From Rhodothermales bacterium (GTDB lineage Bacteria > Bacteroidota > Rhodothermia > Rhodothermales > JANQRZ01), in NCBI GenBank assembly GCA_028284265.1, contig JANQRZ010000006.1, positions 124,001 to 188,000 of the forward strand: 64,000 nucleotides of DNA, in the 5' to 3' direction. The position numbers and the translations under genes are program-made. A model generated the notes under the pieces. The model had not been told where the DNA came from, ran no database searches, and saw only the letters and a list, made by a program, of their open reading frames with translations. Positions 8,096 to 45,258 of the stretch are shown here, in pieces; within the stretch, counting starts at the first letter, position 1, and each line of letters begins with the position of its first letter.

Positions 8096-11000
8096 GCGAG
8101 GCACCCACGACCCACCGACTAGACGGAAAAGGCTGGGCGCTCGCCCTTATCACGCTCGTGGCGAGCGTCGGCATCGCAGGGTGTGCAACGGACGGCGAGA
8201 GCGACGAGGCTGAACCGAGCCAGACTCTCTTCGAGCGCGTCAGCTACGAGCAGTCCGGCGTCGGGTTTATCAACGGCATCCAAGAGACGCTGCAAGTCAA
8301 TATCCTCTCGTTCGAGTACCTCTACAACGGCGGGGGCGTCGCGGTCGGCGATGTGGACGGCGACGGATTGGCCGACCTGTTCTTCACCGCCACCCAGCTT
8401 CCCAACCGGCTCTACCGCAACCTCGGCGGCTTCCGCTTCGAAGACATCACCGAGCAGGCGGGCGTCGCCGGGCGCGATTCGTCGATGACGACCGGGGCCA
8501 CCTTCGCCGACGTGGACGGCGACGGCGACCTCGACCTCTACGTGTGCCAGACCGGCAAACCGGAGTGGCCCTTCGACCGGCGCAACCTCCTCTACCTCAA
8601 CGACGGGACCGGCGCGTTCACCGAGCAGGCCGAAGCGTGGGGCATCGCCTCGACCAACTACTCGAACCAGGCGACGTTCTTCGACTACGACCACGACGGC
8701 GACCTCGACCTATACCTCCTCAACCACCCGTACAACTTCAAGGCGGGCAACGAGGTGATCCTCGGGCAAACCGACCTCGACCCTGCGACCAGCGACCAGT
8801 TTTTCCGCAACGACGGGAGCCGGTTCACCGAGGTTTCGGAGCAAGCCGGCATCCGCAACGAGGCGTTCGGCCTCTCGGCCACAGCGCTGGACTACGACAA
8901 CGACGGGTGGCTCGATGTCTACGTCGCTAACGACTACGTGCAGCCCGACTACCTCTACCAGAACGAGGGCGACGGCACGTTCACGAGCGTTGGGCCGGAA
9001 GCGCTCGCGCACACCAGCCACTTTGGGATGGGGGCCGATGCCGCCGACATCAACAACGACGGCGATCTCGACCTGATCGTGCTCGACATGATGGCTGAGG
9101 ACGCCCGTCGCCAGCGCCTCCTCGGCTCAGTGATGAACTACGAACGGTTCACCCTCCAGCAGGAGGTCGGCATGGGCGCGCAGGTGATGCGAAACATGCT
9201 TCAGGTCAACACGGGCGATGGCGATTTCGCCGAGGTCGGCCAGCTCGCCGGGGTCTCCACAACCGACTGGAGCTGGGGACCGCTCCTCGCCGACTTCGAC
9301 CTCGACGGCTTCCGCGACCTCTTCGTCGCCAACGGCTACCGCCGCGACGTAACGAACCTCGACTACATGCAGTTCACCATCGACTCACTGCGGCGGGCCG
9401 GGGGCGGACGGGTCAACGTCAGCAACATCTACGAGTACCTCGACGAGGTGCCGTCGGAGCCGATTCCCAACTACGCCTATCGCAACCGCGGCGACCTCTC
9501 CTTCGAGGACGTCTCCCGGCAGTGGGGCGTCGCCGAACCGTCGTTCTCGAACGGCGCGGCCTATGCCGACCTCGACAACGACGGCGATCTCGACCTCATC
9601 GTCAACGACATTGACGCACACGCGAGACTCTACCGCAACCGGGCCGATGTGTTGATGCCCGAGCGCCACTGGCTCCGCGTCGCGTTCGAGGGCATGGACG
9701 GCAACCCCTTCGGTATCGGCGCGCGCGTCACGGTTGAGACTGACGCGGGGCAACAGGTCGGCGAGAACGTCATGACGCGGGGGTTCTACTCCTCCGTCGA
9801 GCCAGCCCTGTATTTCGGACTAGGCCCTGACTCGACGGCGACCGTGTCGGTTCGCTGGCTCGACGGCACAGTTCAGCGGCTCGAAGGCGTCGCGGCCAAC
9901 CAGCAACTCACGCTTCGCCACACCGACGCCGCCGACGCCCCGACCACCTCCTCACCGGCAGCGCCCCTCTTCGCCGAGGTGACCGGCATCGGCCTCGACT
10001 TCGTCCACGATGAAGACCCCTTCGTCGACTTCAAGCGCGATGGGCTGATACCGCACAAGCACTCGCGCGAAGGCCCGGCGCTCGCCACCGCCGACGTGAA
10101 TGGCGACGGGCTGGGCGATCTCTACATCGGGGGCGCGGTCGGACAGGCAGGCGTGCTCTACCGCCAGACCAACAGCGGACGCTTCACTCCGCTCGACGGG
10201 CCGTGGCAGGAAGACGCTGCCCAAGAAGATGTCCGCGCCCTCTTCTTCGATGCCGATGGTAACGGGACGTCTGACCTACTCGTCGCCTCCGGCGGCAACC
10301 ACATCGCGGGGACGGGCGAGGACGCAGTGGCAGCTTACGCGGCCCGACTCTACTATGGCGATGGGACCGGCGGCTTCACGAAGGCTCCCGCTGACGCGCT
10401 GCCCGCAACGCCCTACCCGACTGGAGCCGTGGACGCCGCGGACATCGACAGCGACGGCGACCTCGACCTTTTCATCGGGAGCCGCCTCGCGTCGGGCCGG
10501 TACCCGGAGGCACCGAGAAGCTATCTCTTCATCAACGACGGCCAAGGCCGCTTCACGGACGCTACGGCGGAGCAAGCCCCCGACCTTATGGCGCTCGGCC
10601 TCGTCTCCGGTGCCCGCTGGGCCGACCTCGACGGCGACGACCGCCCCGAACTCGTCATGGTGGGCGAGTGGATGGCCCCCAGCATCTGGCAAGCGGATGC
10701 CGCCGGTCGCTACGCCCGCGTGACCTCCCCGGCACTCGACAACCTCACCGGCTGGTGGAATGCCGTCACCGCGACCGACCTCGACGGCGACGGCGACCTC
10801 GACCTATTGGCGGGCAACCTAGGTCTCAACAGCCGCATCCAAGCAACGCCTGAGCAGCCGGTTCGCGTCCACGCCAAGGACTACGACAACAACGGCAGCC
10901 TCGACCCGGTCCTATCGCTCTACTACCCTGACGGGCGCGCCTACCCCATCCATCGCCGGGAGTCGCTGATGAAGCAGTTGCCCTATCTCCAGCAGCGGTT

Positions 11001-11454
11001 CCCCCGGTATGGTCGGTACGCTGCCTCGTCGCTTGACGAGGTGTTCGGCGATGAACTTGAGGGTGCGCTCGTCCGCGAGGCCACCACGTTCGCGTCCATG
11101 TGGTTCGAGAACGACGGACAGGGCGAGTTCACCCCGCACTGGCTGCCGGTTGAGGCACAGGTGGCTCCACTGCACGTCCTCGATGCACACGATGCCGACG
11201 GCGACGGAAACCAAGACCTCCTTCTCGCTGGCAACGACCGAGGGGCGGCTGTCGAGAGCGGCCCCTATGACGCGCTGCGCGGGCTTGTGCTGCGCCAGAC
11301 GGATGCGCAGTGGGAACCGCTATCGCCACAGTCGAGCGGCCTGCGTTTGCCGGGGGATGTCACCGGGATGGTGTGGGTCGAGACGGCGGGTGTGCCCCTC
11401 CTCGTCGCAGCCGTGAGCGACGGCGCGCCGCGTGTCTTTCGGCGCGCCGAGTGA
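8092..11454 (+). CDS. CRTAC1-type lipoprotein with FG-GAP/VCBS repeats and ASPIC/UnbV domain
   Basis: A 1120-residue exported protein. A long n-region precedes a hydrophobic stretch and lipobox GIAGC (Cys about residue 31). Many Ca-binding-type D-x-D-x-D-G blades (DVDGDGLADL, DYDNDGWLDV, DIDSDGDLDLF) form two beta-propeller sets, at about residues 70-500 and 660-1100. Between them lies an ASPIC/UnbV domain (about 525-610, with GIGARVTVET and LYFGLG). No catalytic motif is visible; the family is thought to work in adhesion or binding. The start overlaps the haloperoxidase-like gene by 4 nt, so both are translated from one mRNA. Twin tRNA genes on the other strand begin 16 nt after its stop. 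Confidence 0.88.
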   Translation: MSEAPTTHRLDGKGWALALITLVASVGIAGCATDGESDEAEPSQTLFERVSYEQSGVGFINGIQETLQVNILSFEYLYNGGGVAVGDVDGDGLADLFFTATQLPNRLYRNLGGFRFEDITEQAGVAGRDSSMTTGATFADVDGDGDLDLYVCQTGKPEWPFDRRNLLYLNDGTGAFTEQAEAWGIASTNYSNQATFFDYDHDGDLDLYLLNHPYNFKAGNEVILGQTDLDPATSDQFFRNDGSRFTEVSEQAGIRNEAFGLSATALDYDNDGWLDVYVANDYVQPDYLYQNEGDGTFTSVGPEALAHTSHFGMGADAADINNDGDLDLIVLDMMAEDARRQRLLGSVMNYERFTLQQEVGMGAQVMRNMLQVNTGDGDFAEVGQLAGVSTTDWSWGPLLADFDLDGFRDLFVANGYRRDVTNLDYMQFTIDSLRRAGGGRVNVSNIYEYLDEVPSEPIPNYAYRNRGDLSFEDVSRQWGVAEPSFSNGAAYADLDNDGDLDLIVNDIDAHARLYRNRADVLMPERHWLRVAFEGMDGNPFGIGARVTVETDAGQQVGENVMTRGFYSSVEPALYFGLGPDSTATVSVRWLDGTVQRLEGVAANQQLTLRHTDAADAPTTSSPAAPLFAEVTGIGLDFVHDEDPFVDFKRDGLIPHKHSREGPALATADVNGDGLGDLYIGGAVGQAGVLYRQTNSGRFTPLDGPWQEDAAQEDVRALFFDADGNGTSDLLVASGGNHIAGTGEDAVAAYAARLYYGDGTGGFTKAPADALPATPYPTGAVDAADIDSDGDLDLFIGSRLASGRYPEAPRSYLFINDGQGRFTDATAEQAPDLMALGLVSGARWADLDGDDRPELVMVGEWMAPSIWQADAAGRYARVTSPALDNLTGWWNAVTATDLDGDGDLDLLAGNLGLNSRIQATPEQPVRVHAKDYDNNGSLDPVLSLYYPDGRAYPIHRRESLMKQLPYLQQRFPRYGRYAASSLDEVFGDELEGALVREATTFASMWFENDGQGEFTPHWLPVEAQVAPLHVLDAHDADGDGNQDLLLAGNDRGAAVESGPYDALRGLVLRQTDAQWEPLSPQSSGLRLPGDVTGMVWVETAGVPLLVAAVSDGAPRVFRRAE

Positions 11455-11850: not shown

Positions 11851-12006
11851 ATGAAGAGAACCTACCAACCGAGCCGCCGCAAGCGCGCCAACAAACACGG
11901 CTTCCGCGCACGGATGGCCTCCAAGAATGGCCGCAGCCTCCTCGCCCGCCGTCGCGCCAAAGGCCGTAAGCGCCTCACCGTCAGCGACTCCAAGTCCGGT
12001 AAGTGA
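11851..12006 (+). CDS. rpmH: Large ribosomal subunit protein bL34
   Basis: A small basic protein of 51 residues beginning [20 protein letters not shown], with [21 protein letters not shown]: the full bL34 signature at normal length. It is part of the 50S subunit near the 23S rRNA 5' end. It opens the origin-linked order rpmH-rnpA-yidC-mnmE-mnmG-rsmG on the + strand. A short tail (TVSDSKSGK) extends past the conserved region. The rnpA frame is already open inside this gene. Confidence 0.97.
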
Positions 12007-12010
12007 TCCG

Positions 12011-12457
12011 GTGGCCGAGGCGTCGGCTGACCCGCCCGGTCGGAACCGGTTTTCGCGAGCGGCTCGGCTCAAGCGGCAGCGTCTGATCCGCCCGCTCTTC
12101 GACCGCCACCGGAAGGACGTTCATGCTGTCCGCGTCGGTACGCTGCTCGTGCGCTACCGACTCGTCGCGTCACAGGAGGTCGGTCAGGATGTACCGCTTC
12201 AGATCGGGTTCGCTGTCGGGCGAGGCTTCGGGACAAAACCCGACCGTAACCGAATTAAGCGACTCCTGCGCGAGAGCTTCCGGCTCCACCAGCACACCCT
12301 TGTGGACCTCCTTGCTGACCGACCGGAGACGCTCACGCTGATGGTGCTCTACCGAGGCCATACCGACGGTGCCAGCCTCGCCATCCGCCGCGACCTTCCC
12401 AACGCTCTCCGGCGCATCCCATCTGATTTGGAGAAGCGGCTGAACCCGGAGGCGTGA
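12011..12457 (+). CDS. rnpA: Ribonuclease P protein component
   Basis: The protein subunit that helps the RNase P RNA bind and cut the 5' leader of pre-tRNA. The signature GRGFGTKPDRNRIKRLLRESFR holds the conserved RNR motif; the basic helix RFSRAARLKRQ starts the fold. A GTG at 12011, 4 nt after the rpmH stop, gives 148 residues. The frame is open back to an ATG at 11927 inside rpmH, which would add a 28-residue Ala/Ser/Pro-rich leader. An rpmH/rnpA overlap is known from Thermus, so the upstream start cannot be excluded, but that leader resembles out-of-frame translation of rpmH. Identity is secure, the start is not. Confidence 0.9.
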   Translation: MAEASADPPGRNRFSRAARLKRQRLIRPLFDRHRKDVHAVRVGTLLVRYRLVASQEVGQDVPLQIGFAVGRGFGTKPDRNRIKRLLRESFRLHQHTLVDLLADRPETLTLMVLYRGHTDGASLAIRRDLPNALRRIPSDLEKRLNPEA

Positions 12458-12517
12458 ACTTTCCGCCGGGGTGGAACAGCGACTTAGAGGTCCCGTACCG
12501 CGCCGAGTCCTCTGTCC

Positions 12518-14362
12518 TTGCAGAGGCAGCGACCAGCGACATTTGACCCAACGACTTTGAATCAGGAACAAGGGCTAGACCGCAGCGGCGTCATCGGGAT
12601 CGTGCTCATCACGATCATCATGGGCGTGTGGATGGTCTACTTCACGCCCCGCCCGCCCGTCGAACCCACCGAGCCGGTCGCAGCAGACTCCGTCGAGACC
12701 CTCGTTCCAGAAATCGGGCCAGACGAAGGCTTGGTGGCCCCTGTCGATTCGGCTTTTGCTGCCGTCACGACCGGCGACGCGCGCACCATCACCGTCGAGA
12801 CCGACCGCTACCGGGCAGAGTTCTCGACGAAAGGCGCGACGTTCACCTCGTTCCTGCTGAAGAACTACAACGTCTCGAACGTCTCGGGCGAGGACGCACG
12901 ACCTGTCGAGATGATATCGTCGGAGGACGGTGCCCTCGCGCTCGCCTTTACGCCGCCGCAGGGTCGCTACCTCGACTCGCGCTCGCTGTTCTACGAGACA
13001 CCCGGCCTTGATGGTGTCTCGCTTGAGGTGACCGACACGCCGCGTGAGTTGGCTTTCGAGGTGGCCGTTCCCGGTGGGACACTCCGGCAGACCTACACCT
13101 TCACGCCGGAGAGCTACGAGATCGGCCTGCGCGTCGAGGAGGTTGGAGGCAACCTCCTCTCGTCGTCCGGCGGCTATGAACTCGTGTGGGACGGGGCGAT
13201 CCCCTTTGCCGAGGAGTTGAGTAGCCTCGACGCGACCGCGTCGGGTACCTACGCGCACAGCGGCGGGGAAGTCGAGAAGATCAACCTCGCGTCCGACGCG
13301 ACCGGATCGCAACGACTCAACGGCGCGGTCGATTGGATCGCGGTCAAGAACAAATATTTCGTCGCGGCGATTCGCCCCGAGCAGCCCGCCGACGGAGCCG
13401 AGATCGAAGGCGAGCGGGTCGGTGAAGTCGGCGACATTGAGTTCGAGGAGTACTTCGCCGCCCGACTCGACATGCCGCGACCGCGTGGCGAGGTCAACGA
13501 CTTTCGCCTCTACGTCGGCCCGATGGAGTTCGACCGGATCGCAGCCTTCGATCCTGATCTGTACGACGTGGTGGACTATGGCTTTGGCGCGTTCATGACG
13601 CGGCCCATCGCCAAGTATATCATCTCGCCCTCGTTCCGTTTTCTCGGCGGCCTCCTCCCGAACTACGGCCTTGTTATTATTCTCTTTGCCATCCTCGTCA
13701 AGCTGCTGCTTTATCCGCTGACCAAGGTGTCCTACAAGAACACGGCGCGGATGCGGGAGCTACAGCCGAAGATGGAGGTCATCAAGGAGAAGTACGGCGA
13801 CGACCCGCAGAAGCAGCAGGAGGCGATGATGAAGATGTACCGCGAGACGGGCGTCAACCCGCTTGCTGGCTGCCTCCCGCTCCTCTTGCAGTACCCAATC
13901 ATCATCGCACTCTGGCGCTACTTCCAGAACTCCATCGTCATCCGGCAGGAGCCGTTCCTCTGGGCCGCCGACCTCTCGGCCCCGGACCCCATCCTCAGCC
14001 TTCCGTTCGCCATACCGTTCTACGGCGATTTCGTCGCGGGCTTCACGCTCATCATGGGCCTTGCGATGATCGTGCAGATGAAGGTCTCGATGCCCGACAG
14101 TGGCGGGACGCAGCAGAAGGTGATGATGTACTTCCTGCCGCTGATCCTCTTTGTGGTCTTCAACCGCCTCGCCTCGGGCCTCAGCCTCTACTACCTGACG
14201 TTCAACGTTCTGACGATCATCCAGCAGAAGCTGATCAACAAGGAGGTCGAAGAAGCCACTGCGGCGGGCGAGTCTGACTCAAAGAAACCAAGCCGAAACG
14301 GGCGCGCCCGAACGAACGGCCAAGCGGGTAAGTCGAAGCGCAAGGGCGCGAAGAAGTCGTAG
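12518..14362 (+). CDS. yidC: Membrane protein insertase YidC/Oxa1
   Basis: Inserts and folds inner-membrane proteins, alone or with SecYEG. About 614 residues from a TTG at 12518; a second TTG at 12557 would give a more typical short N-tail before the first membrane segment (SGVIGIVLITIIMGVWMVYF). A large periplasmic beta-domain (about 90-340) follows. The Oxa1 core starts around residue 370 with PNYGLVIILFAILVKLLLYPLT, the cytoplasmic coiled region MRELQPKMEVIKEKY, then NPLAGCLPLLLQYPIIIALW and two more membrane segments. The basic C-terminus (KSKRKGAKKS) suits ribosome contact. No yidD gene fits between rnpA and yidC, though many genomes have one. mnmE starts 5 nt downstream. Confidence 0.95.
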   Translation: MQRQRPATFDPTTLNQEQGLDRSGVIGIVLITIIMGVWMVYFTPRPPVEPTEPVAADSVETLVPEIGPDEGLVAPVDSAFAAVTTGDARTITVETDRYRAEFSTKGATFTSFLLKNYNVSNVSGEDARPVEMISSEDGALALAFTPPQGRYLDSRSLFYETPGLDGVSLEVTDTPRELAFEVAVPGGTLRQTYTFTPESYEIGLRVEEVGGNLLSSSGGYELVWDGAIPFAEELSSLDATASGTYAHSGGEVEKINLASDATGSQRLNGAVDWIAVKNKYFVAAIRPEQPADGAEIEGERVGEVGDIEFEEYFAARLDMPRPRGEVNDFRLYVGPMEFDRIAAFDPDLYDVVDYGFGAFMTRPIAKYIISPSFRFLGGLLPNYGLVIILFAILVKLLLYPLTKVSYKNTARMRELQPKMEVIKEKYGDDPQKQQEAMMKMYRETGVNPLAGCLPLLLQYPIIIALWRYFQNSIVIRQEPFLWAADLSAPDPILSLPFAIPFYGDFVAGFTLIMGLAMIVQMKVSMPDSGGTQQKVMMYFLPLILFVVFNRLASGLSLYYLTFNVLTIIQQKLINKEVEEATAAGESDSKKPSRNGRARTNGQAGKSKRKGAKKS

Positions 14363-14367
14363 CTGCC

Positions 14368-15816
14368 GTGCTCCCGGTCGCCGACACCATCGCCGCGATT
14401 GCTACTGCGCGGGGCCGCGCCGCGCTCGCCATCGTCCGCTGTTCCGGCCCCGAGGCCATCGCCATCGCCGACCGGCTGTTCCCGTCGAAGGACCTTGCTG
14501 CCGCCGATTCCCACACGGCCCACGTTGGGTTTGTCACCACGCCGAAGGATGAGCGAATCGACCAAGTCGTGGTGACGCTGTTTCGTACCCCGCGCTCGGC
14601 GACGGGTGAGGATATCGTTGAGGTCACCTGTCACGGTGGCGACGTGGCTCCGCAACTCATCCTCAAAGCGCTGCTCGATGCCGGGGCACGCCTCGCCCGC
14701 CCCGGCGAGTTCACCGAACGTGCTTTCCTGAACGGCAAGCTCGACCTCGCCCAAGCCGAGGCCGTCGCCGATCTGATCCACGCCCAATCGTCGCTCGCGC
14801 ACCGCGTCTCGCTGAACCACTTGCAAGGGCGCTACTCGGAAGCCGTCGCCGCTGTCCGGCAGGAGCTACTCCAGACCTGTGCCCTCGTCGAGTTGGAGTT
14901 GGACTTCGCCGAGGAGGATGTCGAGTTCGCCGACAAGGCCCAGCTCGAAGCGCTGCTCGAACGCACCTCCCTCCTACTGGAACGCTTGCTCAACTCCTAC
15001 CGCCTCGGCATGCTCGTGCGCGACGGCGTCCGCGTGGTCATCGGGGGCCGCCCGAACGCCGGTAAGTCGACACTCCTCAACGCGCTCGTTGGACGAGACC
15101 GCGCCATCGTCAGCCCGACCCCCGGCACGACCCGCGACGAGATCGAAGCCGAGGTTGAGATCGGCGGCCTCTCGTTCCGGTTCGTTGACACGGCGGGCCT
15201 GCGTGAGACTGAGGATCTGATCGAAGCCGAAGGCGTCCGTCGCACGCACGACGCTATCGCCCACAGCGACGCCTTACTCTATGTCTTCGACGCAACGCTC
15301 GGTCTCGATGCGGAGGAACGCGACTGGCTCGGTAGCTTGACTTCGCCGAACGAGCCTGCGGATCGTTTCACCGTGAAACGTAGTGACGCGAAGTTCAGCG
15401 GAGCTAAACAGTCGGAGCTGCCAACCTTGCTGATTGCCAACAAGCAAGACTTGCTCGGCGAGACCTCCGGCGTTTCTACTGATGGCCTCTCCCCGCTTGC
15501 CATCTCGGCGCACCATGCCCTCGCTGACGGAGATACGCTGAACCCACTGCGGTCTTGGCTCGTTGATGCCGTGGCGGGCGATCTGTCCGACTCCGAGGCT
15601 ACGCCGATTGTGGTCAATCAGCGGCACCGCCAGCACCTCGCCCAAGCGCTCGACGCCGTGCGAGCAGCCAAGCAAGCCTTAGCAACCGGAGCCTCCGGGG
15701 ATACGCTCGCGCTCGACCTCCGCACGGCGCTGCACGAACTCGGAGCCATCACCGGCGAGATCACCAACGACGATGTGCTCGGCACCATCTTCTCCCAGTT
15801 CTGCATCGGGAAATGA
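14368..15816 (+). CDS. mnmE: tRNA modification GTPase MnmE
   Basis: With MnmG it installs the cmnm5/nm5 group on U34 of tRNAs that read two-codon boxes. At 482 residues it is normal length. Parts in order: N-terminal tetrahydrofolate-binding domain with TIAAIATARGRAALAIVR and RPGEFTERAFLNGKLDL; helical domain; G domain with P-loop GRPNAGKSTLLN (about 226-237), TPGTTRDE, DTAGLRE and NKQD; and the invariant C-terminal CIGK. The GTG start is 5 nt after yidC. A 17-nt parS-like palindrome lies inside the coding region at 15364-15380 and another just after the stop. Confidence 0.96.
   Translation: MLPVADTIAAIATARGRAALAIVRCSGPEAIAIADRLFPSKDLAAADSHTAHVGFVTTPKDERIDQVVVTLFRTPRSATGEDIVEVTCHGGDVAPQLILKALLDAGARLARPGEFTERAFLNGKLDLAQAEAVADLIHAQSSLAHRVSLNHLQGRYSEAVAAVRQELLQTCALVELELDFAEEDVEFADKAQLEALLERTSLLLERLLNSYRLGMLVRDGVRVVIGGRPNAGKSTLLNALVGRDRAIVSPTPGTTRDEIEAEVEIGGLSFRFVDTAGLRETEDLIEAEGVRRTHDAIAHSDALLYVFDATLGLDAEERDWLGSLTSPNEPADRFTVKRSDAKFSGAKQSELPTLLIANKQDLLGETSGVSTDGLSPLAISAHHALADGDTLNPLRSWLVDAVAGDLSDSEATPIVVNQRHRQHLAQALDAVRAAKQALATGASGDTLALDLRTALHELGAITGEITNDDVLGTIFSQFCIGK
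15364..15380. other. Odd-length parS-like palindrome inside mnmE
   Basis: CGTTTCACCGTGAAACG is a perfect 8+1+8 palindrome. It equals the parS core GTTTCACGTGAAAC with one extra C at the centre. The half-sites are intact but shifted by one base, so ParB binding is uncertain. Confidence 0.4.
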
Positions 15817-15827
15817 ACGCCTCGATC

Positions 15828-15844
15828 TGTTTCACGGTGAAACA
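15828..15844. other. Odd-length parS-like palindrome between mnmE and mnmG
   Basis: TGTTTCACGGTGAAACA matches the parS consensus TGTTTCACGTGAAACA except for one inserted G in the centre. It starts 12 nt after the mnmE stop in a 124-nt intergenic region that also holds the perfect palindrome GGAACGCGTTCC (15902-15913). Confidence 0.45.
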
Positions 15845-15940
15845 CGACCATACAGAGGTCCGGTGCGACATTACCAAAAGTAGTCCCTCCTTAAATAGTT
15901 AGGAACGCGTTCCCAAAACAGTCTTTACGAATTAACCGTT

Positions 15941-17857
15941 ATGACTCATTCTGACGCGTTTGACGTGATTGTGGTCGGTGGCGGGCACGCCGGAGCCGAG
16001 GCAGCGCATGCCGCCGCCCGTATGGGAGCGCGCACGCTGCTCATCACGATGAGCCTTGAAGCGCTCGGCCGGATGTCGTGCAATCCGGCCATCGGCGGGA
16101 TCGGCAAAGGACAGATCGTCCGCGAGATCGATGCGCTCGGCGGGTTGATGGGTCGCGTGGCCGACCACTCGGGCCTCCAGTTTCGGATGCTGAACCGCAG
16201 CAAAGGCCCGGCGGTGTGGAGTCCCCGCGCCCAGAGCGACCGCACGCTCTATGCCGCTGCTGTCCGCGAAGTGCTCGAAGCCGCCCCTACCCTCTCCTTC
16301 CGCCAAGACATGGCGACAGAGGTGCTCGTCGAGGATGGTCATGTGATGGGCGTGCAGACCCAGACCGGGCAGGTCTTCCGCGCCCGGTGCGTCATTCTCA
16401 CGAGCGGCACCTTCCTCAACGGCACCATCCATATCGGTGAGCAGCAGCACGGCGGCGGTCGCGCTGGTGAGCGTGCGGCGACCGGCATCAGCGCAAGCTT
16501 GGAGAAGCTCGGCTTCGAGGTCGGGCGACTCAAGACTGGCACTCCACCCCGTGTCGATGGCCGCACAATCGACTACGCCGGACTCGAAGAGCAGCCCGGC
16601 GACGAGACCCCTAGCCCCTTCTCGTTTATGACCGATGCCCTCCCGACGGAGCAGCGGTCCTGCTGGCTGACCTACACCTCCCCTGCCGTTCACGAGACAC
16701 TCCGCGCGGGATTCGACCGAAGCCCGATGTTTGCCGGGCGGATTCAGGGCGCGGGCCCGCGCTACTGTCCGTCGATTGAGGACAAGATCGACCGCTTCGC
16801 CGACAAGGACCAGCACCAGCTTTTCCTCGAACCGGAGGGCTGGACCACCTACGAGGTCTACGTCAACGGCTTCTCGACCTCGCTGCCCGAGGAGGTACAG
16901 ATTGAGGCGATGCGTCAGGTGCCGGGTTTGGAGCAGGTGCATATGCTTCGCCCTGGCTATGCCATCGAGTACGACTACTTCCCGCCCTATCAACTCCGTT
17001 ACAGCCTCGAAACCAAGTCCATCGCAGGCCTCTTCTTCGCCGGACAAATCAACGGAACGACGGGCTATGAGGAAGCCGCTGCACAGGGCCTCATCGCGGG
17101 CATCAATGCCGTACAGCGGTTGCGCGATGCCGAGCCGCTCGTCCTCCCGCGCTCGCAGGCCTATATCGGCGTACTCGTCGATGACCTCGTGGCGAAAGGC
17201 ACCGAGGAGCCCTACCGTATGTTCACATCGCGCGCCGAGCACCGGCTCCTGCTCAGGCAGGACAACGCCGACCAGCGCCTAACGCAACTGGGCTACGACC
17301 TCGGCCTCGCCTCACGTGAGCGCCTCGACCGGATGCACCAGAAGCAGGCAGCGCTGACAGCCACCATCGGCGCGCTTCGGGAAACGCCTGTGACACCCAG
17401 CGAAGTCAACGGCTTCCTTGAATACGTCGGTACTGCCCCGATCGCCACCCCCGTCCGGCTTGATCGACTAGTCCCCCGTCCTGAGATCTCGCTTACAGCC
17501 TTGCTACAGGCTCTTGGACGGGAAGACCTCGTGACGGACGCTCCGGGCTTGGAGCCAGTTGAGCACCTTGCCGAGGTGGAACTCAAGTACAAAGGCTACC
17601 TCGACCGGGAGCAAGAGATGGTCGAGAAAATGCACCGGATGGAGAGTTGGAAGATCCCTCCCGGCGTGGAGTACAACGCCATCAGCAGTATCACATTGGA
17701 GGCGCGCGAGAAGCTGACGCGCATTCAGCCCGACACACTGGGCCAGGCCTCGCGCATCAGCGGCGTCAGCCCCGCCGACATCTCGGCACTCATGGTGCTG
17801 CTCAAAAGCAGTCGTTTCACGCCGAACGAGACGACTGTTTCACGTGAAACGGCATGA
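15941..17857 (+). CDS. mnmG: tRNA uridine-5-carboxymethylaminomethyl synthesis enzyme MnmG
   Basis: FAD- and NADH-dependent partner of MnmE in U34 modification. The 638-residue length is typical. The dinucleotide fold VVGGGHAGAEAA is at residues 11-22, followed by MSCNPAIGGIGKGQ, KGPAVWSPRAQSDR, and the GidA signature GTFLNGTIHIGEQ and PPRVDGRTIDY. The C-terminal helical region (YKGYLDREQEMVEKM, IPPGVEYN) binds MnmE and tRNA. The ATG at 15941 immediately precedes the conserved FDVIVVGGG. The last codons form a parS-like site, and the stop lies 14 nt inside the rsmG frame if rsmG starts at GTG 17844. Confidence 0.97.
   Translation: MTHSDAFDVIVVGGGHAGAEAAHAAARMGARTLLITMSLEALGRMSCNPAIGGIGKGQIVREIDALGGLMGRVADHSGLQFRMLNRSKGPAVWSPRAQSDRTLYAAAVREVLEAAPTLSFRQDMATEVLVEDGHVMGVQTQTGQVFRARCVILTSGTFLNGTIHIGEQQHGGGRAGERAATGISASLEKLGFEVGRLKTGTPPRVDGRTIDYAGLEEQPGDETPSPFSFMTDALPTEQRSCWLTYTSPAVHETLRAGFDRSPMFAGRIQGAGPRYCPSIEDKIDRFADKDQHQLFLEPEGWTTYEVYVNGFSTSLPEEVQIEAMRQVPGLEQVHMLRPGYAIEYDYFPPYQLRYSLETKSIAGLFFAGQINGTTGYEEAAAQGLIAGINAVQRLRDAEPLVLPRSQAYIGVLVDDLVAKGTEEPYRMFTSRAEHRLLLRQDNADQRLTQLGYDLGLASRERLDRMHQKQAALTATIGALRETPVTPSEVNGFLEYVGTAPIATPVRLDRLVPRPEISLTALLQALGREDLVTDAPGLEPVEHLAEVELKYKGYLDREQEMVEKMHRMESWKIPPGVEYNAISSITLEAREKLTRIQPDTLGQASRISGVSPADISALMVLLKSSRFTPNETTVSRETA
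17836..17851. other. parS centromere site at the mnmG/rsmG junction
   Basis: TGTTTCACGTGAAACG matches 15 of 16 bases of the conserved chromosomal parS consensus TGTTTCACGTGAAACA. The position at the gidA/gidB (mnmG/rsmG) junction near the origin is typical. It lies in the 3' end of mnmG and contains the GTG that may start rsmG. ParB would load here and organise the origin domain; parA and parB are not in this window. Confidence 0.8.
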
Positions 17858-18509
17858 TGCTCTTCGCAAGATGATAGACCCCTCCACTGCACAACCCCTG
17901 AACGCCCACCAGCGCGAGAGGCTGATTGAGCTAGAGGCGATGGCCCTGCGCCTGAACCAGCGGTTGAACCTGTACTCCGAAGAAAGCACTCAGCATTTCC
18001 AAGAGCGCCACCTGCTACACAGCCTCACACTCGCGTCGCATCCTTTTCCGCCTGGCGCTCATGTTGTGGACTGGGGCACCGGCGGCGGTATGCCGGGCCT
18101 CCCCCTCGCCATCGCGTTCCCCGAGACCACTTTCCATCTCGTCGACTCGGTTGGCAAAAAGATCAAAGCCGTCGAGACGATGGCACGCCGTCTCAAACTG
18201 TCGAACGTACACGCCTATCACGGGAGAGCCGAGGCGTGGGAAGGGCAAATCGCCTACAGTGTTTCACGTGCAACAGCGTCCCTCTCTACGCTATGGGCCT
18301 GGCATAGGCGCTGCTTCTCCCCCCTCAATGTCCCTTCCAGCTACTGGAAGCCCGGCCTGATCTGCCTAAAAGGTGGCGATTTGGACAGCGAGATCGCCTC
18401 TCTCAACGCTGCCTATCCCGGCTTGACGGTTGAATGCTCCCCCCTTCTACCCATCCTGAAAACTCCCTACTTCCAAGACAAGGTGATCGTCGCAGTCAGC
18501 GAAGGATGA
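17844..18509 (+). CDS. rsmG: 16S rRNA (guanine-527-N7)-methyltransferase RsmG
   Basis: SAM-dependent methylation of G527 in 16S rRNA. The SAM-binding loop HVVDWGTGGGMPGLPLA lies at about residues 73-89, followed by HLVDSVGKKIKAVE; the C-terminal strand is YFQDKVIVAV. The usual DxGsGaGfPG appears here as DWGTGGGMPG. Two starts are possible: GTG at 17844 inside the parS site, overlapping mnmG (221 aa), or ATG at 17871 (212 aa). A second parS-like site lies within the gene at 18260. The next gene is convergent, 10 nt away; the parA-parB pair often found after rsmG is missing. Confidence 0.93.
   Translation: MKRHDALRKMIDPSTAQPLNAHQRERLIELEAMALRLNQRLNLYSEESTQHFQERHLLHSLTLASHPFPPGAHVVDWGTGGGMPGLPLAIAFPETTFHLVDSVGKKIKAVETMARRLKLSNVHAYHGRAEAWEGQIAYSVSRATASLSTLWAWHRRCFSPLNVPSSYWKPGLICLKGGDLDSEIASLNAAYPGLTVECSPLLPILKTPYFQDKVIVAVSEG
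18260..18275. other. Second parS-like site, inside rsmG
   Basis: TGTTTCACGTGCAACA matches 15 of 16 consensus parS bases, with one A to C change in the right half. It lies 424 nt from the first site; chromosomal parS sites commonly cluster like this. Confidence 0.65.
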
Positions 18510-27587: not shown

Positions 27588-28748
27588 ATGCGCCTCCGCT
27601 CACTTCGTCTGCTCTCCTTCCGCGCCCACGCCGAGACCGAGGTGGTCTTCGCGCCCGGCGTCAACCTGATCGTCGGACCGAACGGGGCAGGGAAGACGAA
27701 CCTGCTAGAGGCCGTCCACTACCTCTGCCTGACCAAGAGCTTCCTCACCTCAACCGACACGCACGCGCTCCGACAAGGCTGCCCGTACTTCGAGGTCGAG
27801 GGAGATTTCGAGGGCGAGCAGCGGCCTCATCTCGCCGCCCGGTTGGTCTACGTCCCCGACGAAGGCAAGCGGCTGTTTCTCAACAAAGCGCCCCTCGACC
27901 GGCTCTCCGAAATCGTCGGGCAGTTGCCGGTGGTCGTGCTCGCTCCGGCGGATGGGGCGCTGACGGCGGGCGGGCCGGAGGAGCGCCGTCGATTTCTCGA
28001 CAACACGCTGAGCCAGGCGCGCCCTACGTATCTCGGCGATCTGATGGGCTACCGGCGGGCGCTGAAGCAGCGCAACGCGCTCCTGCTGCACCACCGCCGG
28101 ACCCGCACCGCACCCGACCCCGCTGCACTCGAAGCGTGGAACGAAGAACTGGTCACGCTCGGGGCACGGCTGATCGAGCGGCGGCGGCAGTTCATCGATG
28201 AGTTCGCCGGGTTTCTGGCCGAGGCCTACGAACGGATCGAGGCGGTGGGGGAGGAGCCGAGCATCGAGTATCAGACCGCCGTGCCGCTCGCAGAGGACAC
28301 GACGGAGGCCGACATCGCCGAGGCGTTCCGCGAAGCCCTGCACCGCCTCGCCCGGCGCGAGCGCGAGCGGGGCCGCACCCTCGCTGGTCCACACCGCGAT
28401 GAGTTGGTGTTCCGGCTCAACACGTTCGAGGTGCGCCCCTATGCCTCACAAGGCCAACATCGCACCTTCGGCCTCGCCCTCAAGCTCGCCAAGTACTTCT
28501 ACCTCCGCGACCGCCTCGACGAGACGCCGCTCCTCCTCCTCGACGACGTGTTCGGCGACCTCGACCCGCGCCGCGCCGATATCTTCCTCCAGCTTCTGCA
28601 GTCCGACGCCGTCGGCCAAAGCCTGATTACCGCCGCCCGAAGCGAGCCGTTCGATGACGCCGTGGACTTCGGCGCGGAAACTCATCGGGCGATCCGCATC
28701 GTACACGGAGGCGTCGCCGAAGCAGTAGGCGATTCGCTGATTAGGTGA
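27588..28748 (+). CDS. recF: DNA replication and repair protein RecF
   Basis: An SMC-like ATPase that loads RecA at gaps with RecO and RecR. The ATG at 27588 begins MRLRSLRLLSFRAH, the standard RecF N-terminus; 386 residues. Walker A GPNGAGKTNLLEAVHYL (about 33-49); then LAPADGALTAGGPEERRRFLDN; ABC signature region ASQGQHRTFGLALKLA; Walker B LLLLDDVFGDLDPRRA. It is divergent from the CHAT gene with 138 nt between them, where TATCATCT (27560-27567) may be a promoter box. recF often follows dnaA and dnaN; here it is alone, about 16 kb from the putative origin. Confidence 0.96.
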   Translation: MRLRSLRLLSFRAHAETEVVFAPGVNLIVGPNGAGKTNLLEAVHYLCLTKSFLTSTDTHALRQGCPYFEVEGDFEGEQRPHLAARLVYVPDEGKRLFLNKAPLDRLSEIVGQLPVVVLAPADGALTAGGPEERRRFLDNTLSQARPTYLGDLMGYRRALKQRNALLLHHRRTRTAPDPAALEAWNEELVTLGARLIERRRQFIDEFAGFLAEAYERIEAVGEEPSIEYQTAVPLAEDTTEADIAEAFREALHRLARRERERGRTLAGPHRDELVFRLNTFEVRPYASQGQHRTFGLALKLAKYFYLRDRLDETPLLLLDDVFGDLDPRRADIFLQLLQSDAVGQSLITAARSEPFDDAVDFGAETHRAIRIVHGGVAEAVGDSLIR

Positions 28749-30739: not shown

Positions 30740-32317
30740 ATGAAACGACTCCTCGGTATCGTCACGGTCATGCTCGTACTCGCCGCTCTCGCGGTCGTCC
30801 TATGGCTCTATCCGAGGGAAACCATTCGCCGCCCTCCGGTTGAGGTGGACGTGGTGCCGTTCGAGGAGGTCGCGGTAGACTTCGTGCACCAGTGGACGGA
30901 CGAGCAGACCTTTCCCTTTCTCGGCGCGGCCGTGATCGACATCGAGGGCGACGGAATGTGGGAGGTATTCGTCGGTGGCGCGGCGGGCCAGCCGGACGCT
31001 CTCCTCAGCTACCGGGACGGCGCGCTACACAACCGGATCGACGGCTCCGGCCTCTCGGCCCTCACGGCCACCTACGGCGCGACGGCCCTCGACTTCGACG
31101 CTGACGGCGACTCCGACCTCCTCGTTGCACGCAACGATGGTGTCTTCCTCTACACGAATACGGGCGGCGTCTTCTCCGGTGAACGCCTCCCCGTAAACCT
31201 CGACGCCGACGCCGTGCCGTTCGCGGTGGCGGTCTCCGACATCGACGGCGATGGAGATGGCGATCTCTACATCAGCGCGTTCGTTGCCATCCACACTTTC
31301 CGGAGCGCGACGTTCAACGACCCCGAGCACGCAAAGCAGAACGTGCTGCTACGCAACGACGGGACCGGGTTTACGGATATCACCTCGTCGTCCGGCACGG
31401 CCTCAGCGCAGAACACCTTTCTCTCTGTCTTCGTGGACCTAGACGGCGACCGCTTGCAGGACCTCGTCGTGGCTCAGAACACGGGTGAGGTCGAGGTCTT
31501 CCGCAACCTCGGTGGCACCGCGTTCGAGCCTGTCCCCACGAACACCGGCTATGGCTTCTGGATGAGCCTCGCCGTGGGCGACATCGACAATGACGGCGAC
31601 CAAGACCTCTTCTTCAGCAACGCGGGCAACTCCGTCCCCGACTTTCTGCTGCGAGGCGACCTCCGCGACGACCAACGGCTGGCGACCGACTGGCTGCTCC
31701 TTCGCAACGACGGCGACTTCTCCTTTACCGACGTGAGCTATGCCTATGGCCTTCGAGATTTCGCCTTTGCTTGGGGGGCTGTCTTCGAGGACCTCGATCT
31801 CGATGGGCGGCTCGACTTGCTCGTGGCGCAAAACTATCTCAAGCTGCCCAACTTCAAGCTGCGCCGCGTCCCCGGCAAGGTGATGCGGCAGGTGACGAAC
31901 GGCGAGGGTGCGGGCTTCTACCATCTCGACGAGTGGGGACTCAATAACTCGAACTACGCACACGCCCCGCTCATCGTGGACCTTGACGGGGACGCGCGGC
32001 CCGATGTCCTCTGGCTCAACATGGACGGCCCGGCGCGAGCGTTCCTGAATCGATCCGAGGCGAACTTCGTGACCGTCGTACTCCCGGACAACGTCGCGGC
32101 GCTCGGCACGAGGGTGAACGTGGCGGACGGCAGCGGCGAGCGCTACACGCGGGAGGCGGTCGCCGGGGTCGGCCTGATGACGGACCAGACGCCGGAGCTT
32201 GTGTTCGGGCTGGCCGCATCACAGGGTCCGTTAACGGTGACGGTAGAGCGGCCGGACGGAACGGCGACGGTGATCGATTCCGTAGCCCTCGGCGAGCGCG
32301 TGGTTGTCGCCTTCTGA
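30740..32317 (+). CDS. CRTAC1-type FG-GAP/VCBS repeat protein with N-terminal membrane anchor
   Basis: A 525-residue protein with an N-terminal hydrophobic segment (about 4-24, LLGIVTVMLVLAALAVVLWLY) that lacks a clear signal-peptidase site, so it is probably an anchor with the rest in the periplasm. FG-GAP-type blades with D-x-D-x-D-G loops (DIEGDGMWEVFVG, DFDADGDSDLLV, DIDGDGDGDLYI, DIDNDGDQDLFF, DLDLDGRLDLLV, DLDGDARPDVLW) form one propeller, followed by an ASPIC-like tail (LGTRVNVADGSGERYTREA, PELVFGLAASQGP). It is half the length of the haloperoxidase-linked relative at 8092. No enzyme motif is visible. A 26-bp repeat flanks the gene on both sides. Confidence 0.82.
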   Translation: MKRLLGIVTVMLVLAALAVVLWLYPRETIRRPPVEVDVVPFEEVAVDFVHQWTDEQTFPFLGAAVIDIEGDGMWEVFVGGAAGQPDALLSYRDGALHNRIDGSGLSALTATYGATALDFDADGDSDLLVARNDGVFLYTNTGGVFSGERLPVNLDADAVPFAVAVSDIDGDGDGDLYISAFVAIHTFRSATFNDPEHAKQNVLLRNDGTGFTDITSSSGTASAQNTFLSVFVDLDGDRLQDLVVAQNTGEVEVFRNLGGTAFEPVPTNTGYGFWMSLAVGDIDNDGDQDLFFSNAGNSVPDFLLRGDLRDDQRLATDWLLLRNDGDFSFTDVSYAYGLRDFAFAWGAVFEDLDLDGRLDLLVAQNYLKLPNFKLRRVPGKVMRQVTNGEGAGFYHLDEWGLNNSNYAHAPLIVDLDGDARPDVLWLNMDGPARAFLNRSEANFVTVVLPDNVAALGTRVNVADGSGERYTREAVAGVGLMTDQTPELVFGLAASQGPLTVTVERPDGTATVIDSVALGERVVVAF

Positions 32318-42004: not shown

Positions 42005-42931
42005 TCAGAGGTGTCCCATATAGCCGATCACCGCGAAGCGCTCGACTTCTTCGATGTAGCCGTCAAGCAGCGCGAGGCAGGCGGCGAGGTCGCGGTACGC
42101 AAATGGCCCGTCGGTGCGTAGCGAGGCGTTTTCCAAACCGGTCGGAAGCAGCACCCGCTCGCGCAGACCGGCGAAGTTATAGGACGCGGCGAGGGGCTTA
42201 CAGTCCGCCCGCGACATGGCTCTGCCCGTACCGTGACTGAGTGAGCAAAGCGACTCGCGGACACGCTCCGTTGCTCGAACGAGCGCGACGTCCCCTGACA
42301 TATGGGACGGTATGATGTTGAGGTCGCCCGGTTCGACGTGTACCGATCCCTTGCGAATGATCGCACCGCCGTCGTCCAGCCTCTCAAAAGTATTGTGCGG
42401 GAGGTCCAGCACGAGTTCGAGTGGGCCGAGCGCGGAGGCCGCCGCCTCATGTATTGCGGCCCGGTTCGCTTCGGCCCACTCCACCATCCGGTCGAACTCG
42501 GCATCGAACGCCTCCGGTTCGTCCACGAAGGCGTCAACGTGACCGGACTCGGCGCGCGAGCCGGTGTGGATGAGAAGGTGAAGTTGATCCCCTTCGTACG
42601 GAGCGAGCGCGTCGAGGAAATGGTTCCCCCCGCCGAGGTCGCCCAAGTTGCCCTTGTTCTGCCGCAGAGTGTCCGCGATGGTATCCCAAGCTTCGCGCGT
42701 GAGGTCGGCGGGACTCAGTTTGCCACGAACGAGCCGCATGCCGCAACCACAATCGCTTACGGCGAAGCGCCGCCAGTCGGGCTGGCGCGTGAGGACAGCC
42801 GTTCCAGTCGGCAGCGGAGACTTGCCGGGGCATGCGTCGGGCAGAAACACGACGGTCTCTGCCGTGAGGTCGTGCGGTAGCCAATCGTAGAGCTTGCCGA
42901 GTGGTTCAGCCGAGAGGTTGACGATCTCCAT
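42005..42931 (-). CDS. Compact RtcB-family RNA ligase-like protein
   Basis: A 308-residue member of PF01139, against 400-480 for usual RtcB. RtcB ligases join 2',3'-cyclic phosphate or 3'-phosphate RNA ends to 5'-OH using GTP and Mn. The metal and guanylylation residues appear kept: DCGCGM (Asp60, Cys63), GGNHF (His104), IHTGSR (His122), PHNTFE (His179) and SHGTGRAMSR (His233, matching the guanylylated His). In contrast, the usual KGSVSAxxGxxxIIPGSMGT segment here reads KGSVHVEPGDLNIIPSHMSGD, and the last residues are VIGYMGHL instead of the KPxGVIKG type. Function as an active ligase is plausible but unproven. ATG at 42931. Confidence 0.8.
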   Translation of the reverse strand: MEIVNLSAEPLGKLYDWLPHDLTAETVVFLPDACPGKSPLPTGTAVLTRQPDWRRFAVSDCGCGMRLVRGKLSPADLTREAWDTIADTLRQNKGNLGDLGGGNHFLDALAPYEGDQLHLLIHTGSRAESGHVDAFVDEPEAFDAEFDRMVEWAEANRAAIHEAAASALGPLELVLDLPHNTFERLDDGGAIIRKGSVHVEPGDLNIIPSHMSGDVALVRATERVRESLCSLSHGTGRAMSRADCKPLAASYNFAGLRERVLLPTGLENASLRTDGPFAYRDLAACLALLDGYIEEVERFAVIGYMGHL

Positions 42932-43120: not shown

Positions 43121-43978
43121 CTAGTGGTACAGAAACAGCGGAATCTCGGCTTCGTCGATGAGACCGGTGGTGGTGGAGCCGAAGAGGAACTTCGACAGGC
43201 CGGTCTTGGCGTGCGCTCCGGCCACGATGAGGTCGGCGCGGCTGCGGTCGGCGTGGTCGAGGAGCACGTCTTTCGGGCTTTGTCCGGCGATGCTGGTGCC
43301 CACCACCGAGGCAAAGCCGTAGGCGTTGAGGTACGACGTAGCCAAGCCCAGCATCAGCTCGGACTCAGAGCGGGCGTTGTCATCGTCATCGCGGACGTTG
43401 ACGATTTCCACCTCGACGTGCTCGGTGTCAAAGGCGTTTAGCTCAGCGAACTTCTGCATGGCGCGGGCCGCGCTCACGCTCCGGTCGTAGGCCACCATCA
43501 CCCGGCGGATCGGGCGGTAGGCTGGCTCCACGATGAGTGTTGCCGCCGCACCCTTCTCGACCACCTCGTCCATGCAGTGGGTGCGCTTGTCGCGGTCGGG
43601 ATAGAAAAAGTGCGACTCAGCTCCGGCGATGAGCAGGTCGTGGTACTTCATATCCTCGACGATCCGCTCGAACGGGACGCCTTCCCCGATGTGGTCGCTC
43701 CCGTGCTGGACCCCAGCGCGTTCGATCTCATCAGCGAAGCCACGAAGGAGGTGCTGCGCTTGGGCGCGGGCTTCAGAGGAGAGTTTGTGCTGGAGCTTCT
43801 CGGCATAGTACATCGCTCCGAGGCCGGCTCCCGAAGACTCAGACTCAATGCCCTTGCTATCCACGAGCGCGAGGCCTGTGACTTCAGCATCGCACCGCTG
43901 GGCGATCTCTATGGCATAGCGCGTAGCAACGGAAGTGTCAGAGTCGAAGTCGAGAGCAACGAGGATGCGCTTGAGCAT
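43121..43978 (-). CDS. Tandem universal stress protein (UspA x2)
   Basis: A 285-residue protein with two Usp domains. The first starts MLKRILVALDFDSDTSVATRYAIEIAQ (1-145). The second runs from RRVMVAYDRSVSAARAMQKFAEL (about 155) to the C-terminus, with the ATP-binding pattern GAHAKTGLSKFLFGSTTTGLI (G-x2-G-x9-G-S/T). The first domain lacks this loop, so only the second may bind nucleotide. The ATG at 43978 is preferred; the open frame upstream runs into the origin region. It is transcribed away from the putative oriC. The 142 nt between it and the RtcB-like gene start show only short inverted repeats. Confidence 0.88.
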   Translation of the reverse strand: MLKRILVALDFDSDTSVATRYAIEIAQRCDAEVTGLALVDSKGIESESSGAGLGAMYYAEKLQHKLSSEARAQAQHLLRGFADEIERAGVQHGSDHIGEGVPFERIVEDMKYHDLLIAGAESHFFYPDRDKRTHCMDEVVEKGAAATLIVEPAYRPIRRVMVAYDRSVSAARAMQKFAELNAFDTEHVEVEIVNVRDDDDNARSESELMLGLATSYLNAYGFASVVGTSIAGQSPKDVLLDHADRSRADLIVAGAHAKTGLSKFLFGSTTTGLIDEAEIPLFLYH

Positions 43979-44051
43979 GGTAAGTCGGGAGAAGAGGGCG
44001 GAGAAGGGGAAGGTACGGCACACACGCTGTTCCGTCTGCTCAAGGCTCGAT

Positions 44052-44068
44052 TGGTATATGCTGGTATA
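44052..44068. repeat. TGGTATA direct repeat beside the origin unwinding region
   Basis: TGGTATA at 44052-44058 and 44062-44068, one helical turn apart. It lies between the usp start and the AT-rich segment and could be a usp promoter element or a site for an origin-binding protein. Confidence 0.35.
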
Positions 44069-44093
44069 CACGGTTGATCTGTCTTCCACACGC

Positions 44094-44160
44094 TCTATTT
44101 ATATAGAGTATTTAATAAATGATGTTAATGTAGTAGTAGGGCCTGTGGACATGTGGAAAA
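44094..44160 (+). other. Origin basal unwinding system: AT-rich region, DnaA-trios, DnaA boxes
   Basis: In + strand order: an AT-rich segment with the inverted repeat CTCTAT-TTAT-ATAGAG, then TAGTAGTAG (44131-44139, three DnaA-trio units), a GGCC spacer (40-43), and two adjacent boxes TGTGGACAT (44144-44152) and TGTGGAAAA (44152-44160). The order and relative orientation equal the unwinding element described for Bacillus subtilis, where DnaA moves from the boxes onto the trios of one strand. Confidence 0.75.
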
Positions 44161-44187
44161 GCAAGAAGCGAACACGATGTGGAGACG

Positions 44188-44196
44188 TGTGCATAA
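44188..44196 (-). promoter_or_regulatory. DnaA box (exact TTWTNCACA match)
   Basis: TGTGCATAA on +, TTATGCACA on -, an exact fit to the relaxed DnaA-box consensus. It lies 28 nt beyond the first box pair. Confidence 0.7.
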
Positions 44197-44322
44197 GAAG
44201 GCGGGGTTATCCGCGCTTCTGTCCACAAGCGAAGGTCGCTACAAAGCTGCGAGAAGGGGCTTACATGGTGATTGAGTTACGTTGTCCACGTATCCACGCT
44301 CGTCCACATTGAGGAGGTGGGT

Positions 44323-44361
44323 TCATCCACACGATGTCCACCGCCGTACCCCTGTGGATCA
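44323..44361. promoter_or_regulatory. DnaA box pair, inverted (one mismatch each)
   Basis: TCATCCACA at 44323-44331 (+) and TGTGGATCA at 44353-44361 (- as TGATCCACA). Each differs by one base from TTATCCACA. Weaker TCCAC-core sites lie at 44219, 44282, 44290, 44300 and 44334. Confidence 0.6.
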
Positions 44362-44453
44362 GTGTTGGATATCGCGTGGACGATTCGGGCTTGACAAACA
44401 GCTTTTTCTGGCAGGTCGGCGAGGCATCAAGATTTTCCCCGACGTGTCCACCG

Positions 44454-44484
44454 TTCTCCACAATCTTCTCCACAGGGTGGAAAA
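44454..44484. promoter_or_regulatory. DnaA box cluster at the right end of oriC
   Basis: TTCTCCACA occurs at 44454-44462 and again at 44466-44474 (12-nt spacing, same strand), followed by GGTGGAAAA at 44476-44484 on the opposite strand. Each is one base from TTATCCACA or TTTTCCACA. Confidence 0.65.
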
Positions 44485-44595
44485 ACTCTTTGGTTGCGCG
44501 GTACGAGGCTGAGGTCATAGCACGTTCATCGAACATGGCAAAACACGACGGGCTTCCTCTCGTTAGAGTACAACCACGCTGCACCCCGACCTCGC

Positions 44596-45258
44596 ATGGT
44601 TCGCCTCCTCTTCCTGCTGACGCTCCTCGTTCTTCCGTTCGATGTACTCGCACAGTCCAGCGAGTATGACGTGACGATTGCTCGTGTCAAGTATGGCGGT
44701 GGCGGCGACTGGTACAGCGGCGAAGAGTCGCTCCCGACCCTCCTCGCCTTCGTCCGCCAGAACACGCTCCTCGACGTGGCTCCGAGCGAAGACATCGTCG
44801 AGCTGACGAGCGACAAGCTGTTCCAGTATCCGTACCTCTACCTCAACGGGCACGGCACGGTCCGCTTCACCGACCGCGAGGCGGAGCGGCTGCGGCGGTA
44901 TCTCCTCGGCGGCGGCTTCCTTCATGTCAACGACGACTACGGCCTTGACGCCACGCTCCGGCAGGAGATCAAGAAGGTGTTCCCCGACCAGGACTTCGTC
45001 CGTGTTCCGTTCGATCACCCTATATATAGCGCGCACTTCCAGTTTCCGAATGGCCTCCCCAAAATCCACGAGCACAACGGCCAGCCCGCCGAAGGCCTCG
45101 GCCTGTTCCACGAAGGCCGACTCGTTGTCTTCTACTCCTACGAGAGCGACCTCGGCGATGGGTGGGAGCCGGAGGGCGTTCATGACAACCCGCCGGAGAA
45201 GCGGCAGGCCGCGCTACGGATGGGCACCAACCTCCTCGTTTACGCCATGACCAACTGA
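44596..45258 (+). CDS. DUF4159 domain secreted protein
   Basis: A 220-residue protein with signal peptide MVRLLFLLTLLVLPFDVLA (cut before QSSEYD). The rest matches the DUF4159 family: IARVKYGGGGDWYSGEESLPTLL, PYLYLNGHGTVRFTDREAERLRRYLLGGGFLHVNDDYG, FDHPIYSAHFQFPNGLPKIHEHNG, and a C-terminal GVHDNPPEKRQAALRMGTNLLVYAM. The domain is related in fold to glutamine-amidotransferase-like proteins and often occurs with BatA/VWA/MoxR genes, which are not adjacent here. The function is unknown. It is the first gene to the right of the putative origin, and a DUF4359 gene follows at 4 nt. Confidence 0.85.
   Translation: MVRLLFLLTLLVLPFDVLAQSSEYDVTIARVKYGGGGDWYSGEESLPTLLAFVRQNTLLDVAPSEDIVELTSDKLFQYPYLYLNGHGTVRFTDREAERLRRYLLGGGFLHVNDDYGLDATLRQEIKKVFPDQDFVRVPFDHPIYSAHFQFPNGLPKIHEHNGQPAEGLGLFHEGRLVVFYSYESDLGDGWEPEGVHDNPPEKRQAALRMGTNLLVYAMTN

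Follow-up and report, generated by a model that had tools for sequence, protein, structure and literature searches.

A predicted BUS-type chromosomal replication origin not linked to dnaA in Rhodothermales

The oriC of Escherichia coli is not adjacent to dnaA and has two arms of DnaA boxes, mostly opposite in orientation, beside one DNA unwinding element (DUE). Origins of the E. coli type are flanked by gidA and mioC (PMC10225481). The type case of the basal unwinding system (BUS) is incC of Bacillus subtilis (Richardson 2016; PMC6669920; PMC8287927). According to the published rule, a BUS has a box with ≤2 mismatches located ≤16 bp from ≥3 DnaA-trios, three trios being minimally required, and its GC-rich gap averages 4 bp (PMC8287927). 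Origins distant from dnaA are known in other bacteria (PMC10225481; PMC6323995); the oriC of Synechococcus lividus PCC 6715 (DoriC 10), a box cluster far from both dnaA and dnaN, has been reported as a one-strain exception (PMC6323995).

We analyzed a 64,000-nt stretch (the window) of a Rhodothermales draft genome (3.69 Mb, 24 contigs), corresponding to positions 124001-188000 of the 457,999-base contig C23. The gap at 43979-44595 is predicted, with a probability of about 0.93, to be a chromosomal oriC of the BUS type, unlinked to dnaA. Like the B. subtilis-type BUS, it has tandem boxes, a 4-bp GC-rich spacer, at least three 3′-GAT-5′ trios and an AT-rich DUE in the same order; it differs in that the Rhodothermales site is not at dnaA/dnaN, its boxes span about 350 bp on one side, and its function is predicted from sequence. 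The likeness to E. coli oriC, drawn partly by inference, lies in the non-adjacent dnaA, the two oppositely oriented box arms and the single DUE, whereas the flanks here are DUF4159 and usp, with mnmG 26 kb away. The box cluster is far from dnaA as in S. lividus PCC 6715, but the dnaA-free position is common to the order Rhodothermales. While the BUS mechanism and origins away from dnaA in other bacteria are known, the order-wide dnaA-free locus is new. Among the papers searched, none relevant dealt with the origins of Rhodothermus or Salinibacter or with pgi/comEC flanking an origin, and none described an order-wide pgi-usp-comEC origin locus. The search did not extend to the DoriC tables or to the bulk of the subscription literature, where single origins from Rhodothermales may already be recorded.

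The gene-free gap and its BUS core

The 617-bp gap is flanked by usp on the minus strand and a DUF4159 gene on the plus strand; the pair of diverging genes described in the initial annotation is confirmed. The features of the region are as follows.

43979-44595, no strand: oriC candidate, gene-free, carrying the DnaA-box cluster, BUS and DUE (box count and alignment of 3 family members)
43121-43978, minus: usp, universal stress protein (Pfam Usp, E=1.7e-25), a conserved origin neighbour, with an orthologue beside the box cluster in nine families
44596-45258, plus: DUF4159 gene (Pfam, E=1e-66), right neighbour in the home family and in one genus of family f12
27594-28631, plus: recF (TIGR00611, E=5e-96), origin-region context
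11854-18509, plus: rpmH (11854), rnpA-like gene, yidC, mnmE, mnmG and rsmG, classical origin context
17836-17851 and 18260-18275, plus: two parS-like sites, 1 mismatch each (0.09 expected)

The genes recF, mnmE/G, rsmG and rpmH, reported earlier as lying nearby together with parS, were all found, the parS sites being one mismatch short of exact. Both sites map to rsmG or its edge, some 26 kb away from the candidate origin, no further parS-like site with ≤2 mismatches occurs on the contig, and the ParB gene is on a different contig (C14). Two FG-GAP repeat/ASPIC-UnbV proteins are also encoded in this region, at 8092-11454 and 30740-32317 of the window.

DnaA boxes were scored at ≤2 mismatches to TTATCCACA, and the expectation was taken from 300 dinucleotide shuffles. 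The gap contains 15 boxes, against 1.6 ± 1.3 expected and a shuffle maximum of 7 (n=300), and the second-best 617-nt segment of the 64 kb contains 4. Six of the 15 are within 1 mismatch of TTATCCACA (0.12 expected), and TCCACA cores number 10 (0.36 expected). None of the 15 is an exact TTATCCACA, and the boxes are mostly imperfect. This count bears out the original estimate of over a dozen box-like 9-mers, and the two exact TTWTNCACA matches placed at 44152 and 44188 are both real.

The gap also harbors a complete BUS overlooked by the initial annotation: tandem boxes, then GGCC, three DnaA-trios and the AT-rich DUE. Read on the minus strand from 44160 to about 44100, the sequence is TTTTCCACATGTCCACA-GGCC-CTACTACTA-CATTAACATCATTTATTAAATACTCTATATA. 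The elements and the remaining boxes are listed below.

44152-44160, minus: trio-distal BUS box, TTTTCCACA, 1 mismatch, in tandem with the trio-proximal box (scan and sequence)
44144-44152, minus: trio-proximal BUS box, ATGTCCACA, 2 mismatches (scan and sequence)
44140-44143, no strand: GC spacer GGCC between trios and box (sequence)
44131-44139, plus: three DnaA-trios, TAGTAGTAG (TAG x3; 3′-GAT-5′ x3 read from the box) (sequence)
44095-44138, no strand: AT-rich DUE (stability ranking; 24 relatives are also AT-rich at this position)
44082-44090, plus: DnaA box beyond the DUE, TCTTCCACA (box scan and family alignment)
44178-44196, minus: two more left-arm boxes, GTCTCCACA and TTATGCACA (box scan)
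44207-44331, mostly plus: right-arm boxes at 44207, 44219, 44282, 44290, 44300 and 44323 (scan; conserved in the relatives G001 and G002)
44353-44484, mixed: distal right-arm boxes at 44353 (minus), 44454 (plus), 44466 (plus) and 44476 (minus) (scan; conserved in G001 and G002)

As in the published rule, a box with ≤2 mismatches lies ≤16 bp from ≥3 NAN trios, with a 4-bp spacer and 3 TAG trios. The core pattern, including the trios and allowing 1 mismatch, matched exactly once in the home genome, and its reversed control did not match there at all. The AT-rich segment recognized at the outset proved to include, at 44095-44134, the 40-mer with the lowest stability anywhere in the 458-kb contig by nearest-neighbour energy; 60- and 100-bp windows around it likewise rank 1 for instability. 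The gap combines two marks of an oriC, a box cluster well above chance and an easily melted AT-rich DUE beside the boxes. When the gaps of three home-family members, including G001 and G002, were aligned, the conserved blocks were mainly boxes, trios and DUE, and non-box blocks were also conserved near both ends. One such block, TTGGTATANGCTGNTATA at 44052-44070 between usp and the DUE, is largely conserved in the three members and is a possible promoter or protein site.

By this layout, DnaA made from the distant dnaA locus would bind the clustered boxes. From the tandem pair at 44144-44160, a DnaA filament would be guided across GGCC onto the trios at 44131-44139, by analogy with B. subtilis (PMC6669920; PMC8287927). 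The filament on the trios would then melt the adjoining DUE (44095-44138) towards usp, and the melted DUE would allow helicase loading. The left-arm boxes are on the minus strand and those of the right arm mostly on the plus strand; the boxes outside the BUS, arranged in these two largely opposed arms, probably aid DnaA assembly, as in E. coli.

Conservation across Rhodothermales and beyond

The BUS core was matched in 24 of 114 Rhodothermales genomes. The matched cores sit in clusters of 6-22 boxes per 600 bp except for one (L076, in the Roseithermus sacchariphilus genome G009), which lacks a box cluster and was taken as a chance match. The loci of matched cores contain no dnaA, and across the order none occurs in the 1.5 kb or so around a BUS. 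In families with a more diverged core, the box cluster was located via usp, upstream of this gene; in G004 and G018, dnaA is at or near position 1, and usp and the box cluster come some 31 kb later. The separation of dnaA and the element ranges from 8 kb in Longimonas halophila (G077) to about 410 kb in G032; it measures 22-58 kb in several genomes, 73 kb in G002, 150 kb in the home genome and 231 kb in Roseithermus.

The homologous site lies beside usp in nine families and between pgi and comEC in others. The arrangement found most often, pgi-[oriC]-usp-comEC, is on this comparison the predicted ancestral one; usp is absent in three lineages (pgi-[oriC]-comEC), and DUF4159 replaces the pgi side in the home family. 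As the home pgi locus (contig C2) contains no box cluster, the cluster stayed with usp, not pgi. We found no comEC on the home contig. An RtcB-like protein with a partial Pfam match is encoded at 42005-42931 of the window (minus), beyond usp, where relatives have comEC.

We also scanned 84,980 species genomes for CCACATNTCCACANNCYCTACTA, which the window contains exactly, and at least 119 loci matched. The phyla among the matches listed include Bacillota, Acidobacteriota, Deinococcota, Chloroflexota, Poribacteria, cyanobacteria and others. For 87 of the 119 matches listed, the fetched stretch also encodes a DnaA- or DnaN-like protein, in most cases no more than a few hundred bases away, and by our estimate about one match would be expected by chance; therefore the string marks real origins. 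Among these 119, the only loci with pgi adjoining the element were named as or resembled Rhodothermales.

Strand asymmetry and the dnaA locus

The dnaA ORF starts at C23:318322 and the candidate origin is at C23:168.1 kb. With this separation of 150 kb, dnaA is not next to the predicted origin, as had been noted at first. The dnaA gene adjoins dnaN and has 7 boxes within the 600 bp upstream, which make the next-best 600-bp cluster over 400 kb of C23. All 31 dnaA loci examined in the order lack a BUS core, and the home dnaA locus has no BUS.

Nucleotide skew, one check proposed by the initial annotation, came out partly in favour of the site. We regressed third-position skew on gene strand and replichore and fitted a change-point with bootstrap. 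On the home contig, raw GC skew alone is misleading, because the replichore effect (0.03) is several times smaller than the GC3 skew due to the coding strand (-0.18). The raw cumulative GC skew of C23 bottomed out in a plateau from 140 to 210 kb, lowest at 208 kb, which contains the site at 168 kb; dnaA lies high on the positive arm. The strand-corrected switch was best at 156 kb, with 166 kb nearly equal, and the site fitted about 3.8 log-likelihood units better than dnaA at 318 kb; the bootstrap range was wide (156-376 kb at 5-95%), and switches at 202 and 282 kb gave almost as good a fit. The complete chromosome of Roseithermus sacchariphilus gave a sharp match, with the corrected switch at 1.160 Mb and the BUS at 1.155 Mb, while dnaA at 0.924 Mb was about 23 log-likelihood units worse and was rejected. 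Less favourably, the raw skew of G032 was lowest near dnaA, the strand-corrected signal being weak with its best fit elsewhere, and in G025 (C1), under coarse sampling, the corrected switch at about 340-480 kb was offset by 100-250 kb from the BUS at 586 kb, an offset that a rearrangement could have produced.

The G025 switch, as coarsely sampled, is nearer to a second dnaA paralogue (416 kb) than to the BUS. Two DnaA-like proteins are encoded in G025, G034, G041 and G048 (f14), in G014, G024, G047 and G075 (f13) and in G030, G058, G107 and G110 (f5), whereas the home family has one.

The true origin might instead lie upstream of dnaA, with the gap as an accessory cluster. The neighbouring dnaN, the 7 upstream boxes and the raw skew of G032 point that way, but the dnaA loci lack the BUS core, the least stable DNA of the contig sits at the gap, and the position is rejected strongly by the Roseithermus skew and mildly by that of the home contig. 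We consider this very unlikely, and discarded the dnaA upstream region as an origin for its few boxes and missing BUS; these boxes probably serve autoregulation. Still less probable is a datA/DARS-like locus for DnaA titration or reactivation, which would bind many DnaA molecules and not fire: dense boxes away from dnaA are what such a locus would show, but it needs neither trios nor DUE, and the gap has both, arranged as in described origins, while no comparable cluster was found elsewhere on the contig. The divergent genes and the conserved non-box blocks near both ends might also suggest that the gap has no part in an origin and is a promoter region under DnaA control, lying between usp and DUF4159. 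This has almost no probability, as the cluster and BUS persist where one or both neighbours are other genes (pgi, comEC).

Implications of the predicted origin locus

The boxes, the DUE, the BUS, the order-wide conservation and the skew of a relative together support the initial reading of a replication origin in a region without dnaA. Universal stress proteins are an ATP-binding family. It is conceivable, though improbable, that the origin has been fixed at pgi-usp-comEC since the Rhodothermales ancestor, uncoupled from dnaA, and that the adjoining usp helps control initiation; if so, usp would have been kept in nine families because it takes part in this control.

As first supposed, a search next to dnaA would miss the site. 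The predicted origin of an order lies where the usual dnaA rule fails: dnaA is 150 kb away here, and most of the order has kept this arrangement. Correct origins are needed for coverage-based growth-rate estimates, strand-bias studies and genome start conventions. The predicted BUS keeps its sequence apart from dnaA, which supports the view of the BUS as an ancestral module.
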